NCBI GenBank assembly: GCA_030631125.1
Contig: DAOVLS010000154.1
Span: forward strand, 1 to 6,071
Length of the DNA stretch: 6,071 bases
Direction: 5' to 3'
Origin: Planctomycetales bacterium
Lineage (GTDB): Bacteria > Planctomycetota > Phycisphaerae > SM23-33
In this document: piece after piece, positions 1,280-6,071 of the stretch
How positions within the stretch are numbered: position 1 is the first letter of the stretch
Layout: every line of letters begins with the position of its first letter
The notes under the pieces: model-generated
What the model was told of the DNA's origin: nothing
Seen by the model: only the letters and a program-made list of their open reading frames with translations
The model's database searches: none
Made by a program: the position numbers and the translations under genes

Positions 1280-2149
1280 CTATTGTGTTTTCGCGTAGTA
1301 CTTTTTCTCTAATGACTTGAGGTACTTCAGACCTTCCGTCAGAAGTTGATCGCTCGAAGGCGCAAGTTTGCGCCATATACACGTAGCGGCGCGCATTGCG
1401 TCGGATGGTGCACAAAATGATTCCAGACCCACAATGCCGTCATATCCGATTTCCGCCAGCGCTCTGTATATTTCGTCCCAGTCCACCGTACCTGTTCCAG
1501 GCGTACCGCGATGGCTCTCGCTCAAATGGTAATGGCATAGATCATCGGCCGCTTCCAGTGTGGGGTGATAGAAATCCGTCTCCTCGATGTTCATGTGATA
1601 CGCATCGAGATGAATCGCGACGTTCGGTTCATCAATCATGGCCTTAAGTTTCAATGCCTGCCGGCATGTGTTTATCAAGAAAGTCTCGTACCGGTTGATA
1701 GGTTCAATGCCGATCGTAATGCCAAAATTCTGAGCAAACCTCGCAATTTCTCTCATGCAATCAGCGGCGCGGTTCCAGTAACGCTCGTCAGGCATGGAAT
1801 CGATCTTTCGACCGATGGCCGAATAAGCAACCCCTGTAAACAGCGTGGCGCCCATTTCCGAAGTCGCTTCGACGCATTTCTTCAGGTATTCCACGCCGCG
1901 ATTGCGGGTGTCTTTGTCTTCTCCGGTCAGATCATTCTTCTCGGAACACGCCGTTGAGGCGCATACGCCGAGACCGACGGCGTTTGCTCGTTCCCGGATC
2001 GCTTTCGGATCAATATGTTCGAGTTCCATTAGTGGAATCTCTATAAGATCGAACCCGATCTGTTTGGCGTGGCCAATGATATCCAGAGAATCGGAATTCC
2101 AACTGGATGTCCAGGCATAGGCGTGCACGGCATATTTCAGGTAACTCAT
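1280..2149 (-). CDS. D-psicose/D-tagatose 3-epimerase-like sugar isomerase (AP endonuclease family 2, TIM barrel)
   Basis: A 289-aa protein, the usual length of ketose 3-epimerases (about 290 aa). The family interconverts ketoses or related keto-sugars at C3 through a metal-bound cis-enediolate in the cytoplasm. All four metal/catalytic positions can be seen: Glu149 in GIEPINRYE, Asp182 in HLDAYHMNIEE, His208 in YHLSESHRG and Glu243 in GLESF. His185 and Arg214, both conserved around the active site, are also present. The HLDAYHMNIEE and HLSESHRGTPGTG segments closely resemble Agrobacterium D-psicose 3-epimerase (LDTFHMNIEE, HTGESNRRVPGKG). The exact sugar cannot be told; inosose- or hydroxypyruvate-isomerase-type activity is less likely. 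ATG 2149 is preferred because AAGGAGA (2161-2155) lies 5 nt upstream and the ATG overlaps the trpF stop as ATGA. A frame extension to 2392 is only antisense-like read-through of trpF DNA. Third gene of the mscS-trpF operon. Confidence 0.88.
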   Translation of the reverse strand: MSYLKYAVHAYAWTSSWNSDSLDIIGHAKQIGFDLIEIPLMELEHIDPKAIRERANAVGLGVCASTACSEKNDLTGEDKDTRNRGVEYLKKCVEATSEMGATLFTGVAYSAIGRKIDSMPDERYWNRAADCMREIARFAQNFGITIGIEPINRYETFLINTCRQALKLKAMIDEPNVAIHLDAYHMNIEETDFYHPTLEAADDLCHYHLSESHRGTPGTGTVDWDEIYRALAEIGYDGIVGLESFCAPSDAMRAATCIWRKLAPSSDQLLTEGLKYLKSLEKKYYAKTQ

Positions 2150-2847
2150 GATGATCTCCTTCTCTGTTCGCAGTTTGTAAGATGAACTGGATTCCGCGCA
2201 GCGCGGATGAAATCTTCGACTTTTTTCAGGTCTTTTACGCCGGGCGACGATTCGACGCCGCTGGAAACGTCCACCATCCATGGCTGGACGATTCGGACGG
2301 ACTCGGCGATGTTTTCCGCATCCAGCCCGCCGGACAGCACCAGCGGCGGGAGATCGTCGAGTTTGCCCGCTGCCCGCGCTTGTGCCACCCACTGCCAGTT
2401 GAACCGCTCGCCCGTCCCGCCGGCGACGCCGGGAACGTAGGCGTCAAGCAGAACGGCTTTGACCTGCTGGGTCGATTGCACGCCATCCATCCAGGAGCGA
2501 ACTTCGTCAATCCAACGGTCATCACGAATGCGGAAGGCCTTGATGCACGGAACGAATAAATCTTCGACGATTTCCGGCTTCTCAGCGCCGTGGAGTTGGA
2601 CCAGTGTCAGGTTCGCTCTGGCGGCAATGCGATTGACAGTTTCGGCGTCGTTATCGACGAAAACGCCGATGGTCGTTGTCAATGGCGGAAGCGCGTCAGT
2701 AACAGCCTGCGCCTGCTTTGGAGAAACCTGTCGAGGCGAGTCGGCAAAGACAAGCCCAATCGCATCAGCGCCCATCCGCACAATCTCGGCTGACTGGGCA
2801 GGATCGCGCAGACCACAGATTTTGATTCGAGGTTGCACCGGCTCCAC
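2146..2847 (-). CDS. trpF: Phosphoribosylanthranilate isomerase
   Basis: This enzyme catalyses the Amadori rearrangement of N-(5-phosphoribosyl)anthranilate to CdRP, the third step of tryptophan synthesis, as a cytoplasmic (beta/alpha)8 barrel. Visible family signatures are KICGLRDP at the N-terminus with the general-base Cys11, GLVFADSPRQVS (31-42), VQLHG (83-87), the general-acid Asp135 in LLDAY, GGTGERFNW (143-151), LSGGLDAENI (171-180) and the phosphate-binding DVSSGVESSPGVKD (193-206). It is monofunctional and slightly long (233 aa against about 200-220); the extra is mainly a C-terminal tail after about residue 219. The start is GTG at 2847, 1 nt after the mscS TAA, with GGAG (2858-2855) 7 nt upstream inside the last mscS codons. 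The tail's final codons encode the AAGGAGA SD of the next gene, and the TGA overlaps its ATG. No other trp gene is in the window, so trpF is detached from a trp operon here. Confidence 0.96.
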   Translation of the reverse strand: MEPVQPRIKICGLRDPAQSAEIVRMGADAIGLVFADSPRQVSPKQAQAVTDALPPLTTTIGVFVDNDAETVNRIAARANLTLVQLHGAEKPEIVEDLFVPCIKAFRIRDDRWIDEVRSWMDGVQSTQQVKAVLLDAYVPGVAGGTGERFNWQWVAQARAAGKLDDLPPLVLSGGLDAENIAESVRIVQPWMVDVSSGVESSPGVKDLKKVEDFIRAARNPVHLTNCEQRRRSS

Positions 2848-2848
2848 T

Positions 2849-3997
2849 TTAATTCTCCGATTTACCTTTGACGTATAGCGTTTGTGTCGGGAAGGCGAAT
2901 TCGATTCCCTCTTCGTTGAATCTACGCAGGAGTTCCATGTTGAACTCGTGCGTGAATTCCAGGTAGTCCCACCACTCCGGCGGGGCGAACCAGTAATAGA
3001 CGACGATATTCAGGCTGGTCGGGTTGAAATCGTTGAAAAATACCTGTCCGGGCCTGTCGGCGGGGAAATGGCCTTTTCGGGCGTCGAGCATTTCCCGGAT
3101 AATCTCGACGGCGCGGTCGACCTTCTCCGGCGGGGTGTCGTAGGTAATCGTTACGTCCAGGACTCGTTTGATATAAGGGCGGCGACCGACATTCTCCACG
3201 GGCGAATTGGTTATGACGGAGTTGGGTATTGTAACCAGGTGTCCGGTGAGTGTCCGAAGCCGCGTCGAGCGGAAGCCGACTTCCTCGATAATCCCCTCGT
3301 GGCTGCCTATCCTGACCCTTTCACCCATCTGGAAGGGCCTGTCCGTGAAGATCGTTACCGAACCGAAGAAGTTGGCGAGCGTGTCCTTTGCGGCCAGCGC
3401 GAACGCCAAGCCGCCGATGCCCAGTCCCGTCAGCAGCGTGCCGATGTTCCAGTGGAAGATGTTCTGGGCGATGAACAGACCCGCGACGATGATTACGAAT
3501 ACACGCAGCGTCTTGCGCAGGATGGGAACCAACTGGTCGTCCAGTTGAGTGTGAGTCTTTGACGTCAAACGCAGGAGGAATATCTCAAGAACGTCCACGA
3601 GGCGATAGACTGCCCAGCCGGAGGCGATAACGGCGATGGTCTTGCAGACGGCGGTCCACAGCCACATGAAATTCTTTGGGGCGCCGTCGGCGTTGATGAA
3701 GACGACGTCGTCGAGCCGCATGAACACCCTGGCAGAGTAAAGCCCGGCGGCGAAGATGAGCAGAGCGACCGGTCTGGCCAGAGAACGAAGGACCATGCCC
3801 GTGGCGACAAATCGCTCGGACCGGATTAACCTCTGCCCCTGACGGATAAGGACAAACGAGATAATCTTTCCGACGATAAACGTAACCAGCAGCGCGCCAA
3901 ACAGAATCGCCCATTGCCAGATTTCGTTATTGAGAAATTCGGCGCGATACCAGACATCTCCGGCAGCCTGCATCGTTTGTGCGAGAGTCAATGTCAT
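2849..3997 (-). CDS. MscS-family small-conductance mechanosensitive ion channel
   Basis: A 382-aa integral membrane protein. Hydrophobic segments lie at about 29-53, 70-92, 110-133 and 162-180, followed by the pore-lining helix (183-215) with the Gly/Ala-rich stretch LLTGLGIGGLAFALAAKDTL typical of MscS TM3. The beta domain follows (about 216-270: PFQMGERVRIG, EEVGFRSTRLRT, VTIPNS), then a C-terminal alpha/beta vestibule domain ending in FAFPTQTLYVKG. The family opens under membrane tension to release solutes during hypo-osmotic shock. With extra N-terminal helices it is larger than E. coli MscS (286 aa), like YnaI-type or plant-type members. I prefer ATG 3997 over the TTG at 4066, because the TTG overlaps the putative -35 hexamer and has no SD. 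The SD for 3997 is modest (AGGGA about 9 nt upstream). It heads a compact operon with trpF and the epimerase. Confidence 0.93.
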   Translation of the reverse strand: MTLTLAQTMQAAGDVWYRAEFLNNEIWQWAILFGALLVTFIVGKIISFVLIRQGQRLIRSERFVATGMVLRSLARPVALLIFAAGLYSARVFMRLDDVVFINADGAPKNFMWLWTAVCKTIAVIASGWAVYRLVDVLEIFLLRLTSKTHTQLDDQLVPILRKTLRVFVIIVAGLFIAQNIFHWNIGTLLTGLGIGGLAFALAAKDTLANFFGSVTIFTDRPFQMGERVRIGSHEGIIEEVGFRSTRLRTLTGHLVTIPNSVITNSPVENVGRRPYIKRVLDVTITYDTPPEKVDRAVEIIREMLDARKGHFPADRPGQVFFNDFNPTSLNIVVYYWFAPPEWWDYLEFTHEFNMELLRRFNEEGIEFAFPTQTLYVKGKSEN

Positions 3998-4091: not shown

Positions 4092-4120
4092 TTGGTGATT
4101 TGCCGGTTGGGTGATATAAT
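4092..4120 (+). promoter_or_regulatory. Near-consensus sigma70 promoter driving the 74-nt structured RNA
   Basis: TTGGTG (4092-4097), a 17-nt spacer and a perfect TATAAT (4115-4120). The expected start point, 6-8 nt downstream (about 4126-4128), coincides with the first bases of the long closing stem of the RNA candidate. That is a strong positional argument that this DNA encodes a discrete plus-strand transcript. Confidence 0.6.
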
Positions 4121-4125
4121 AAATT

Positions 4126-4199
4126 GGACCGGGATTCGCGGCGGTGATTCTTCACTGCTGCGAGAGAGGTCTCCCTCCGCCTCTCGGCTTCCCGGTCCA
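4126..4199 (+). ncRNA. Novel-looking compact structured small RNA (three-stem fold), family unknown
   Basis: The transcript starts on a closing helix: TGGACCGGGA (4125-4134) pairs perfectly with TCCCGGTCCA (4190-4199), 10 bp. Inside are two hairpins. GCGGCGGTGA (4138-4147) pairs with TCACTGCTGC (4152-4161) as 10 bp including two G-U pairs, with a TTCT tetraloop. GAGAGG (4164-4169) pairs with CCTCTC (4180-4185), leaving the 10-nt loop TCTCCCTCCG. The whole is a three-way junction. The C-rich loop is complementary to purine-rich Shine-Dalgarno sequences, so a regulatory sRNA that masks ribosome binding sites or titrates a protein is conceivable. After the closing stem comes ACTTTTCTTTAT, a T-rich tail that could terminate transcription. 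It is not a tRNA: the closing stem is 10 bp and there are no D- or T-loop motifs. It lacks the SRP RNA GGAAGGAAGC motif. I recognise no Rfam family. Evidence is by-eye folding only. Confidence 0.58.
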
Positions 4200-4210
4200 C
4201 TTTTCTTTAT
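4190..4210 (+). terminator. Possible terminator of the 74-nt RNA
   Basis: The 3' arm of the GC-rich closing helix is followed at once by ACTTTTCTTTAT. The T-run is interrupted and the stem is long-range rather than a local hairpin, so termination efficiency is uncertain. The AT-rich sequence continues to about 4330. Confidence 0.3.
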
Positions 4211-4333
4211 CGGCCAGCTTCAAGCGCATATCCAATAAGGTGTTTTAGAATTTAACGAATTTGTAGCCAGGCGCAACTGTTTATTTCACAAGGCATTAGC
4301 AAATATATATCTCTTAAAAGGAGTAATTCGTTC
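4211..4333. other. AT-rich intergenic spacer
   Basis: I see no gene here. Base composition drops sharply compared with the surrounding coding DNA. It contains a GAATTT-N3-GAATTT-like direct repeat beginning near 4249, a TATATAT stretch (4304-4310) and AAAAGGAG (4316-4323). Immediately upstream of the TTGACT -35 at 4334, the AT-rich block could act as an UP element for the promoter of the following RNA. Confidence 0.4.
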
Positions 4334-4362
4334 TTGACTTGCCGATTTAAGCCGATTAGTAT
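4334..4362 (+). promoter_or_regulatory. Sigma70-like promoter upstream of the rod-like RNA and RNase Y
   Basis: TTGACT (4334-4339, 5 of 6 consensus) and TAGTAT (4357-4362, 4 of 6) are separated by 17 nt, preceded by an AT-rich, UP-like block. Initiation would be near 4368-4370. The spacer carries a direct repeat GCCGATT-taa-GCCGATT (4341-4347, 4351-4357) with a period of 10 nt, one helical turn, so a regulator could bind there. Confidence 0.5.
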
Positions 4363-4367
4363 GGTAT

Positions 4368-4555
4368 TAGGATTGGGTCGTGGCTGGGGAATTGCTTTCC
4401 GGCCCGGCCTTGGATAAGTAACTGAACAGACGGTTGAAGAGTATTGCGGCAGGGAAGTCGCGTGAAGAGGCTTTCTCCCGCTGCGGGTGTTCGGAATCTG
4501 GTATAAGAGCGGATTTCCGGCACGTCGCTTCCGGGTCAGAAATTAAAGGCAGTTT
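4368..4555 (+). ncRNA. ssrS: Candidate 6S-like rod-shaped RNA (or structured rny leader)
   Basis: About 185 nt that fold by eye into one interrupted rod. From outside in: GGCTG (4382-4386) with CAGTT (4550-4554). Then TTGCTTTC (4392-4399) with GAAATTAA (4539-4546), one mismatch and one G-U. Then GGCCCGG (4401-4407) with CCGGGTC (4531-4537). Next is a large asymmetric bubble (4408-4426 and 4501-4530). Then CAGA/TCTG (4427-4430, 4497-4500), TTGAA/TTCGG (4434-4438, 4490-4494), and an apical helix GCGGC-A-GGGA with TCCC-GCTGC (4446-4455, 4476-4484). Length, a rod with a central bubble, an own promoter and a location directly upstream of rny all resemble 6S RNA, which mimics an open promoter and binds RNA polymerase. 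I did not verify conserved 6S sequence positions, so the symbol is provisional. The alternative is an rny leader without separate function. Confidence 0.38.
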
Positions 4556-4562
4556 AAGGTTA

Positions 4563-4577
4563 TGACCACATTGGTCA
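4563..4577. repeat. Perfect palindrome TGACCA-CAT-TGGTCA
   Basis: Six-base perfect inverted repeat with a 3-nt centre. Its length and symmetry suit a dimeric transcription factor operator, but it could equally be a small RNA hairpin at the 3' edge of the 6S-like transcript. No regulator gene is nearby. Confidence 0.4.
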
Positions 4578-4595
4578 AAGATGTATCAGGATGTA

Positions 4596-4626
4596 GGAAC
4601 CTGCCTGCACGGCAGGCAGGGTTTCC
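4596..4626. repeat. Strong palindromic hairpin (CCTGCCTGC / GCAGGCAGG)
   Basis: CCTGCCTGC (4600-4608) and GCAGGCAGG (4612-4620) are perfect complements around a 3-nt ACG loop. GGAA (4596-4599) pairs with TTCC (4623-4626) beyond a 2-nt bulge, making 13 bp. There is no T-run, so it is a poor intrinsic terminator. The internally repeated CCTG/CAGG pattern suggests a dispersed palindromic element of the kind scattered between genes in many bacterial genomes. Only one copy lies in this window. Confidence 0.55.
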
Positions 4627-4886
4627 AGGTGCGATTCACGGGCATCCGGGGCCTCGACCGGACAGTCGGGCTGTCCCGGCGGCAACGCAACGATGGACGC
4701 GAATGCGATCAAGTGCATCCGAAACTGCATGACATTATTCTGACCTGACGAGGCCCGGGACGACGCAACTCCCGCAGCGCAGAGACGGCATTGACACGCC
4801 TGCCGCGGACACCGGCAACGAAGGCGAAAAACCCTTCGCGCCGGCGTTCGCCATACTCCCAACCGGCAGCATAAAGGAATACTGCA
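4627..4886 (+). other. GC-rich leader of the RNase Y gene
   Basis: No convincing gene. It holds several small stems: CCGGACAG with CTGTCC-C-GG (4658-4665, 4671-4679, loop TCGGG) and CGAAGG with CCTTCG around 4819-4838. The latter competes with GGCGAA/TTCGCC (about 4823-4852). A lone TTGACA (4791-4796) has no -10 at the right distance. The end carries the rny ribosome binding site AAAGGA (4873-4878), 8 nt before the ATG. If rny is transcribed from the 4334 promoter, its leader is more than 500 nt long. Confidence 0.45.
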
Positions 4887-6071
4887 ATGTACACCTACGC
4901 GCTTCTTTCTCAGATACAGATAACCGGTGGAATGGTGACGGCGATTTTGGTCAGTCTGATTGCGGGTATTGTCGGCGCTCTGGTGATTCGGGCTTTTCTG
5001 GTCCGCCGACAGGAAAAGGCGCTGAGTCAGGAGATAGAGGCCCGGCGCGCCGCTGCTGAAGCCGAGGCGGAACGCATCAAGGCGCAGGCCCAGGCGGAGG
5101 CAAAAAGCGAATTCATCGCACGCCGAAAAGAGTTCGACGCCGAAACCAAAAATGCCAGGACGGAACTTCGCGGCGAGGAAAAACGCCTCTCCAAACGTGA
5201 AGACCTTATCAACCAGAAAATGGAAATGCTGGCGATTAAAGAACGGTCGGCGGAAGCCGCTGAAAGGACCATCAAGGAGCGTGAAAATTCGCTCGTTACC
5301 AAGGACCGGCACCTGAACGAATTAATCGCCCAGCAGAAAAGCCAGTTGCTCAAAGTGGCCAATTTGTCGGTGGAAGATGCACGAAAAATTCTCCTGGCCG
5401 AGGTCGAGAAGGATATCGAGGACGATGCCGCCCAATTGGTCCAGCGCCGGCTGGAAGAGGCTGAAGAAAACGCCGAGTCGAAGGCTCGTGAGATCGTTAC
5501 GATGGCGATCCAGCGCTACGCGGCTAAACATACCAGCGAGGCCACCGTTTCAACCGTCAGCATTCCCTCCGACGAGATGAAGGGTCGCGTCATTGGGCGG
5601 GAAGGTAGAAACATCCGCGCCTTCGAGGCGGCTACCGGTGTCGATGTAATCGTCGATGACACGCCCGGCGTGGTGGTCATTTCAGCGTTCGACCTGGCCC
5701 GGAGGGAAGTGGCGCGATTGGCGCTGGAAAAACTCGTCCAGGACGGGCGAATCCATCCGGCTCGCATAGAAGAACTGGTGGAAGAGACGCGAAAGGAAGT
5801 TGATCGGCAGATACAGGAAATGGGCAAGCAGACGACAGTCGATGTCGGCGTCCGCGGCTTGCACGCCAAACTGGTCAACCTGCTGGGCCGGTTGCATTAC
5901 CGGACAAGTTACGGGCAGAACGTCCTTCAACATTCGATTGAAGTCGCCTTCCTGTCGCAGATGATTGCCGAGGAGATTGGCTTCGACGGTACACTGGCCA
6001 AGCGCTGCGGGCTGCTTCACGACATAGGCAAGGCCGTCGATCACGAGGTCGAGGGCACGCACCCGCAGATC
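4887..6071 (+). CDS. rny: Ribonuclease Y, 3' end beyond window
   Basis: Membrane-anchored endoribonuclease that initiates mRNA decay in bacteria lacking or complementing RNase E. The visible 395 residues (family about 510-530) show, in order, a single N-terminal membrane helix (about 14-37, ending in basic residues), a long charged Glu/Lys/Arg/Ala-rich coiled coil (about 40-215), a KH RNA-binding domain with the GxxG loop ([10 protein letters not shown], 235-244), and the beginning of the HD phosphohydrolase domain (QHSIEVA at 348-354 and the metal-binding His378-Asp379 in [20 protein letters not shown]). The rest of the HD domain lies beyond the window. ATG 4887 has a good SD (AAAGGA, 8 nt). 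The gene is divergent from the mscS operon. Any regulation through the long structured leader is unknown. Identification is secure. Confidence 0.96.

Follow-up and report, generated by a model that had tools for sequence, protein, structure and literature searches.

The window, the whole 6,071-nt stretch of planctomycete DNA analysed here, carries on its minus strand a uroporphyrinogen-decarboxylase-like gene, a TIM-barrel gene, a phosphoribosylanthranilate isomerase gene and a mechanosensitive channel gene (mscS), and on its plus strand the RNase Y gene (rny). A structured RNA, here called type A, sits within the 889-bp gap between mscS and rny. The features discussed are the following.

2849..3997, minus strand: MscS-type mechanosensitive channel gene, mscS (Pfam), the divergent 5' neighbour; start put at ATG
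4092..4097, plus strand: putative -35 box TTGGTG, 3 of 6 bases as in the consensus; TTGTGA or TTGTCA nearby in the four nearest relatives
4115..4120, plus strand: perfect -10 box TATAAT after a 17-nt spacer; TAAAAT or TGAAAT in the four nearest relatives, TATAAT in L126
4125..4205, plus strand: type A sRNA, a three-way junction of about 75 nt with a T-rich tail; probable start near 4126
4125..4134, plus strand: 5' arm of the 10-bp closing helix (fold; 7 of 10 pairs invariant in alignment A2)
4136..4163, plus strand: hairpin 1, 12 bp (4136-4147 with 4152-4163), loop UUCU (fold; 4 of 12 pairs changed on both sides)
4164..4185, plus strand: hairpin 2, 7 bp including a U-G closing pair (4164-4170 with 4179-4185), the recurring C-loop module
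4171..4178, plus strand: 8-nt loop CUCCCUCC of hairpin 2, the presumed working site
4190..4199, plus strand: 3' arm of the closing helix (fold)
4200..4205, plus strand: T-rich tail CTTTTC (sequence), a possible termination site together with the closing helix
4208..4214, plus strand: TATCGGC, invariant in the window and the four nearest relatives (alignment A1)
4887..6071, plus strand: rny, RNase Y (Pfam RNase_Y_N, KH and HD), the 3' neighbour of type A, cut by the window end

An RNA gene between mscS and rny

Folding of positions 4125-4210 gave -50.6 kcal/mol (z = -7.92), a stability equalled by 0 of 200 dinucleotide shuffles, with 4125-4199 forming a closed three-way junction in which the 10-bp closing helix surrounds hairpins of 12 and 7 bp. 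Sequence and fold thus confirm the three-stem RNA that the initial annotation had described here. The perfect closing helix (4125-4134 with 4190-4199) stands as claimed; the tetraloop hairpin is present but has 12 bp at 4136-4163 rather than 10 bp at 4138-4161; and the reading of 4164-4185 as 6 bp around a C-rich 10-nt loop is valid, the alternative being 7 bp around the 8-nt CUCCCUCC. The promoter had been described more generously than our results allow. While the -10 box is perfect and the spacer is 17 nt, "near-consensus" overstates a promoter whose -35 box matches at 3 of 6 bases, and TTGGTG-17-TATAAT was absent from the list returned by a promoter scan of the window. The tail CTTTTC is T-rich but weak as a terminator, and a terminator scan of the window returned no classical terminator for type A. 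The reverse strand of type A also folds (z = -6.42), as expected from inverted repeats, and in an intergenic alignment of five sequences the minimum z lay at 4110-4228, with -8.1 on the plus strand and -7.9 on the minus strand. An Rfam scan, one of the checks initially proposed, gave chance-level matches alone for the window RNA and nothing at threshold in Rfam 15. Neither a tRNA or tmRNA (ARAGORN) nor a match to 6S RNA, SRP RNA or a riboswitch (Rfam) was found in the window, in agreement with the claim that this RNA resembles none of them.

The closest sequences found, L001-L004, come from metagenome-assembled "Planctomycetales bacterium" and have RNase Y identities of 84-88% to the window. 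From hairpin 2 through the closing helix, about 40 nt hardly vary between the window and these four relatives; given this, we agree that the arrangement is hard to explain by chance. Type A was found in 10 of 100 related genomes, comprising L001-L004, four more copies detected by DNA similarity and two more by a covariance model. All ten RNAs lie upstream of rny, and mscS lies on the other side in seven, being unseen within the fetched flank in the remaining three. Covariation, which had also been proposed as a check, was scored in a set of nine sequences (A2), in which 87.2% of cells pair. Seven of 29 pairs changed on both sides, a level reached by 4 of 500 shuffles, and the score of 0.189 (shuffled mean 0.122) was equalled by 0 of 500, while further pair types were not above shuffles in this set (304 of 500 reach the count). 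Among the nine there is almost no variation in the closing helix or the C-loop hairpin, so that in this set both are supported mainly by conservation. L174, which lies outside the set, has the closing helix GGGCC...GGCCC and not GGACC...GGUCC, replacing A-U by G-C.

The loop CUCCCUCC is retained among type A relatives with small changes. A C-rich loop is present on the second arm alone in 7 of 11 type A sequences, the window included, and on both arms in the other four, which are distant relatives (L165, L166, L174 and L175; for example UUUCCUCC and UCUCCUCC). At minimum energy, two of nine type A sequences (L002 and L003) fold with the junction but without the 7-bp C-loop hairpin. The tail is T-rich in most of the ten genomic copies, L166 and L175 being the exceptions, and wobble evidence for the strand of type A is weak (23 G-U versus 12 A-C cells).

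Two further parts of the gap were conserved. A hairpin in the rny leader (4774-4890), from which L001 lacks the inner part, almost matches the minimum z of type A (-8.0 on the plus strand, five-sequence alignment) and may regulate RNase Y from the leader. In the four nearest relatives, conservation extends to 4330-4770, the stretch that separates the sRNA from rny; it opens with a promoter-like TTGACT-17-TAGTAT (4334-4362), includes blocks such as GGCAGGGAAGTCG and TTAAAGGCAGTTAA, and had no Rfam match at threshold.

For wider comparisons, near kin were defined as G001-G038, the first 38 genomes on the list of relatives of G004, taken as ordered by kinship, with the boundary set post hoc once the distribution was known. 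RNase Y identity agrees roughly with this boundary, being at least 57% in all 27 near-kin genomes that were searched; of 13 other genomes, 12 fall at 46-58% and the remaining one gave a partial match at 65%. The expectation that every near-kin genome carries type A upstream of rny was refuted by a hairpin scan of 26 rny loci, which detected type A in four genomes, all found by the model before, and unrelated hairpins at six loci.

A recurring C-loop hairpin and its RNAs

The second hairpin of type A has a 16-base match at other loci of the same genomes, the recurring loop hairpin being AGGUCUCCCUCCRCCU. The initial interpretation is supported in part, the -35 box being weaker and the anti-Shine-Dalgarno likeness looser than claimed; that the hairpin is reused across a family with several members lay beyond a view of one sequence. 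Its 14-mer core, GGTCTCCCTCCRCC, is present at 108 places in 36 of 38 near-kin genomes versus 9 places in 8 of 160 others; the reversed control gives 4 and 7 places, respectively. A stem of at least 6 bp closes the loop in 85 of the 108 near-kin contexts, including the window, versus 2 of 9 outside, and the near-kin places are often paired, mostly 46-53 bases apart. The loop-proximal GG:CC pairs are mostly kept and the outer stems are variable, also in members not selected by the exact pattern. In alignment A3 the loci were chosen by pattern, which by itself accounts for part of the invariance of the loop and closing pairs; loci found by the model alone have looser loops. One type A and one type B query returned no plasmid copies.

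Most near-kin occurrences of the core are located in type B, an RNA composed of GUCCGCUGCACCC, a C-loop hairpin, GGGUUGCGGC, a second C-loop hairpin and a U-run, the latter two forming a terminator. Among 44 type B sequences, 18 of 29 predicted pairs changed on both sides, and 172 G-U versus 9 A-C cells indicate that the C-rich strand is the structured RNA. Perfect TATAAT boxes were found in 10 of 41 upstream regions (0.3 expected), three of the 44 sequences having been dropped for want of a usable anchor; of the 31 regions without a perfect box, nine had no candidate at all. T-runs follow the second hairpin in most rows. A type B covariance model gave 82 matches in 37 of 38 near-kin genomes, all except G007, with the weak match in G030 (4.8e-5) representing another C-loop RNA and not a true type B. 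Among 397 genomes drawn from the class, 37 matched this model at E 0.001, 36 of them near kin plus one weak other. Two weak matches outside the clade (G067 and G147) were rejected as type B, having no C-rich loop by eye.

The same large gene lies upstream on the same strand at 30 of 69 type B loci examined. In the two tested, it was identified as a ribonucleotide reductase with a TSCPD domain, which we take to be class II. Acido-Lenti-1 RNAs (RF01687) were observed about 0.8 kb from the type B loci in L024 and L028 (at ~490-740), one per strand. A general family of C-loop terminators was considered and rejected: in 397 kb of G002, hairpins with CTCC loops and T-runs (3) were not commoner than those with GGAG loops (5).

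Other members have different architectures. Twenty regions had model matches without the exact pattern, and all except two out-of-clade regions showed, by eye, C-rich loops that mostly lie between GG and CC and precede T-runs, as in L352 (CAGG[CUCCCCUCC]CCUG, two copies) and L351 (GUCGG[UCUCCCCCCA]CCGAC). A further twin C-loop RNA with a T-run lies in G001 and G002 (L316 and L327, minus strand) between genes that we call coaD-like and nadD-like from a reading of translated frames; L348, L354 and L355 contain similar RNAs. L152 (G012) carries three tandem copies about 195 bases apart (1700-2440, plus strand), each preceded, by eye, by a palindrome around TTTTCCTCCTTT. This palindrome contains CCTCCTTT of the 16S 3' end, as seen in L254. 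By eye, C-loop hairpins in L117, L123, L125, L129 and L157 stand in other architectures without a clear poly-T terminator. Noted separately from these RNAs, L313 (G002:C31) has a tandem array of units like CGCACGGAGGGGATATTTTTTC near a contig end. A terminator-hairpin model, whose training hairpins come from near kin, matched 71 places at E below 1e-6, all in near kin (37 of 38) and none in the 62 other genomes searched; at a looser limit of 0.05, 23 of these 62 also matched, the best at 1e-5. An alignment that contained reverse-strand matches (A5) was left out of the analysis.

We conclude that the window holds a real, conserved type A sRNA gene whose loop recurs in sister RNAs of one planctomycete group. 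The C-loop family is nearly restricted to this clade, has more than one member per genome, and points to small regulatory RNAs of a kind not catalogued before.

Likeness to known C-rich-loop sRNAs

Stable hairpins with a conserved C-rich loop are a trait that these RNAs share with the C-rich-loop sRNAs, which form a functional group and not one defined by homology; two of nine type A sequences fold otherwise at minimum energy. In the excerpts available of the published accounts, alpha-r14/NfeR1 of Rhizobiales has a conserved C-rich loop motif, variable stems and a sigma70-type promoter, is Hfq-independent, and pairs through its loop motif with the ntrB start region (PMC10746234, PMC3927594). 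The planctomycete RNAs resemble alpha-r14 (RF02344, ar14) in their C-loop hairpins, and no Hfq gene was found in 60 related genomes. However, alpha-r14 has three CCUCCUCCC hairpins, whereas the planctomycete RNAs have one or two with CUCCCUCC and its relatives, and type A, unlike alpha-r14, is closed by a 10-bp helix. The window RNA had no match to ar14 up to E 10, while the paralogues L152, L352 and L354 matched it below threshold, at best with 30.7 of the 58.8 bits needed. Some paralogues match ar14, ar7 and CcsR1 below the Rfam threshold (E 0.01-0.8; CcsR1 in L340, L348, L354 and L355), and such matches also include the unrelated ftsZ-DE, FinP and a riboswitch; there were none for the type A loci or the canonical type B locus tried.

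Other known sRNAs share the design. Xanthomonas sX13 is characterized, in the parts of its description available, as a 115-nt Hfq-independent RNA with stable stems and C-rich loops that represses mRNAs with G-rich motifs near start codons (PMC3771888). It differs in its three hairpins with CCCC/CCCCC loops, its location beside polA and its occurrence in a different phylum. Mycobacterial B11 acts on mRNAs through C-rich loops without a known chaperone and has its working loop in the terminator, according to an excerpt of PMC12395582; 6C, the other mycobacterial C-rich-loop sRNA, appears in a title of its reference list. The terminator position of the working loop recalls type B, although B11 and 6C come from a different phylum, and our Rfam scans returned no match named 6C or B11. 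CcsR RNAs (RF02791) are named for their CCUCCUCCC motif in the Rfam description; an excerpt on the cuckoo RNA family/CcsR reports co-transcription with the DUF1127 gene ccaF1 in Rhodobacter (PMC10253847). Here the likeness lies in C-rich-loop sRNAs present in several copies. To our knowledge, the closed three-way-junction form is unusual.

For planctomycetes themselves, no description of a C-rich-loop sRNA family was seen among the papers listed by a literature search, mostly as titles and abstract starts. Table 1 of PMC2864571, as excerpted, lists Rhodopirellula-1 as a candidate motif of Proteobacteria and Planctomycetes, which has no Rfam accession. The functional kind of C-loop sRNA is already known, and the planctomycete family matched nothing in Rfam 15 at threshold; Rhodopirellula-1 has no Rfam model.

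Mode of action

We consider it somewhat probable that type A is an sRNA gene with its own transcription, that it belongs to a C-loop family specific to a clade of Planctomycetota, and that it acts in trans without Hfq. Type A would be transcribed independently as an RNA of about 75-80 nt, displaying a single C-rich loop, or two in some relatives, on a hairpin within the closed three-way junction; twin-hairpin type B, downstream of the ribonucleotide reductase gene, would be the commonest family member. By analogy with known systems, the preformed loop may pair with G-rich stretches at or near the ribosome-binding sites of several mRNAs, which would lower their translation or stability, an effect established by experiment for alpha-r14/NfeR1 and sX13. 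We favour pairing in trans with G-rich leaders because the design matches that of known Hfq-independent C-loop sRNAs, and because of the subthreshold Rfam matches. The search for Hfq was negative in all 60 related genomes and positive in 5 of 14 control genomes.

The initial annotation had taken the loop as a mimic of the anti-Shine-Dalgarno sequence, suggesting translational regulation or protein titration. The mimicry is no more than approximate: the loop would pair with GGAGGGAG, whereas start regions in 397 kb of G002 (294 predicted genes) are AAGGA/AGGAG-like: AAGGA occurs in 11%, AGGAG in 9%, GGAGG in 3% and GGAGGGA in none. Pairing of the loop at or below -8 kcal/mol was predicted for 34 of 293 start regions versus 15 of 293 upstream controls, but the loop shows no special fit to Shine-Dalgarno sequences, ranking 29 of 84 permutations of its own letters, 28 of which pair better on average. 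Counts of GGAGGGAG-spacer-ATG exceeded the reversed control in 26 near-kin genomes (148 versus 69, including some complements of sRNA hairpins) and in 12 others (67 versus 35); this roughly twofold excess in both groups alike gives no clade-specific target signal.

The sequence GGAGGGAGA occurs at 49 places in G001-G004 versus 17 for the reversed control. Ten of the 49 are type A or type B hairpins and two correspond to the other-strand C-loop sRNA (L316 and L327). The pairs L290/L331, L297/L315 and L323/L325 are each conserved between two genomes and lie in long open frames; one further pair has just 41 bases in common. A conserved mRNA target with GGAGGGAGA was rejected, as no site besides sRNA hairpins is common to all of G001-G004.

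As the loop is not tuned to Shine-Dalgarno sequences, a C-loop-binding protein stays a live rival, and these target results, combined with the retention of the loop-proximal G-C pairs, leave scope for recognition by a protein. CsrB acts as a decoy for CsrA with GGA loops. In a comparable manner, C-loop hairpins could be binding sites for an RNA-binding protein, with KH proteins such as RNase Y as candidates, and the RNAs its decoys or sponges; we regard this as possible, though rather unlikely. It would fit the mostly retained loop-proximal GG:CC pairs beside varying outer stems, and a loop that tolerates C/U exchange. With two loops on type B and more than one RNA in a genome, the system suits titration, and type A adjoins rny, whose product has a KH domain. 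However, the protein partner is hypothetical, the GG/CC invariance stems partly from choosing loci by pattern or by a model trained on pattern loci, and comparable C-loop sRNAs act on mRNAs via G-rich motifs or base pairing, according to excerpts of PMC3771888 and PMC10746234. A more specific form, which we hold to be speculative, is that the clade-wide RNAs, showing RGG-UCUCCCYCCR-CCY once or twice each, are decoys for a dedicated C-loop-binding protein, with a possible tie to RNase Y given the KH domain and the type A gene beside rny. If true, the C-loop decoy set would be a global system, a mirror image of CsrB/CsrA.

Type A might instead be a cis-acting leader element of the rny transcript that controls RNase Y expression, given that it lies upstream of rny in 10 of 10 genomes and that the interval between them is conserved in the four nearest relatives. 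We consider this quite improbable: type A ends about 690 nt before rny, has its own -10 box and T-rich tail, and is separated from rny by the second promoter-like sequence, TTGACT-17-TAGTAT. Moreover, type A is present in 10 of 100 genomes versus rny in 40 of 40 examined, and the same hairpin occurs at unrelated loci.

Two readings without a C-rich RNA have very little in their favour. The hairpin resembles a palindrome-like dispersed repeat and forms a terminator in type B, as a DNA-level element without an RNA role (a dispersed repeat, protein-binding site or terminator decoration) might do, but such an element is hardly credible in view of the selection on one RNA strand evident from type B wobble asymmetry (172 versus 9) and double changes, the few copies per genome with neighbours shared across the clade, and the finding that the known type B locus is the only one in 397 kb of G002 to hold a pair of CUCCCUCC hairpins within 60 nt. 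A CsrA sponge with exposed GGAGGGAG loops, read as the working RNA from the other strand, would accord with the reverse fold (z -6.4) and with CsrA in 52 of 60 related genomes, but is just as implausible, since the TATAAT boxes, T-runs and G-U/A-C ratio of type B mark the C-rich strand and type A has its -10 box on the plus strand.

We therefore return to trans-acting C-loop sRNAs as the preferred reading of type A and its sister RNAs. The family would extend the list of unrelated bacteria that have C-rich-loop sRNAs, in this case partly within a closed three-way junction. Its neighbours, rny and ribonucleotide reductase, make the idea directly testable, and a family that spans the clade, with several members in a genome and recurrent neighbours, offers a concrete entry point to post-transcriptional control in planctomycetes.
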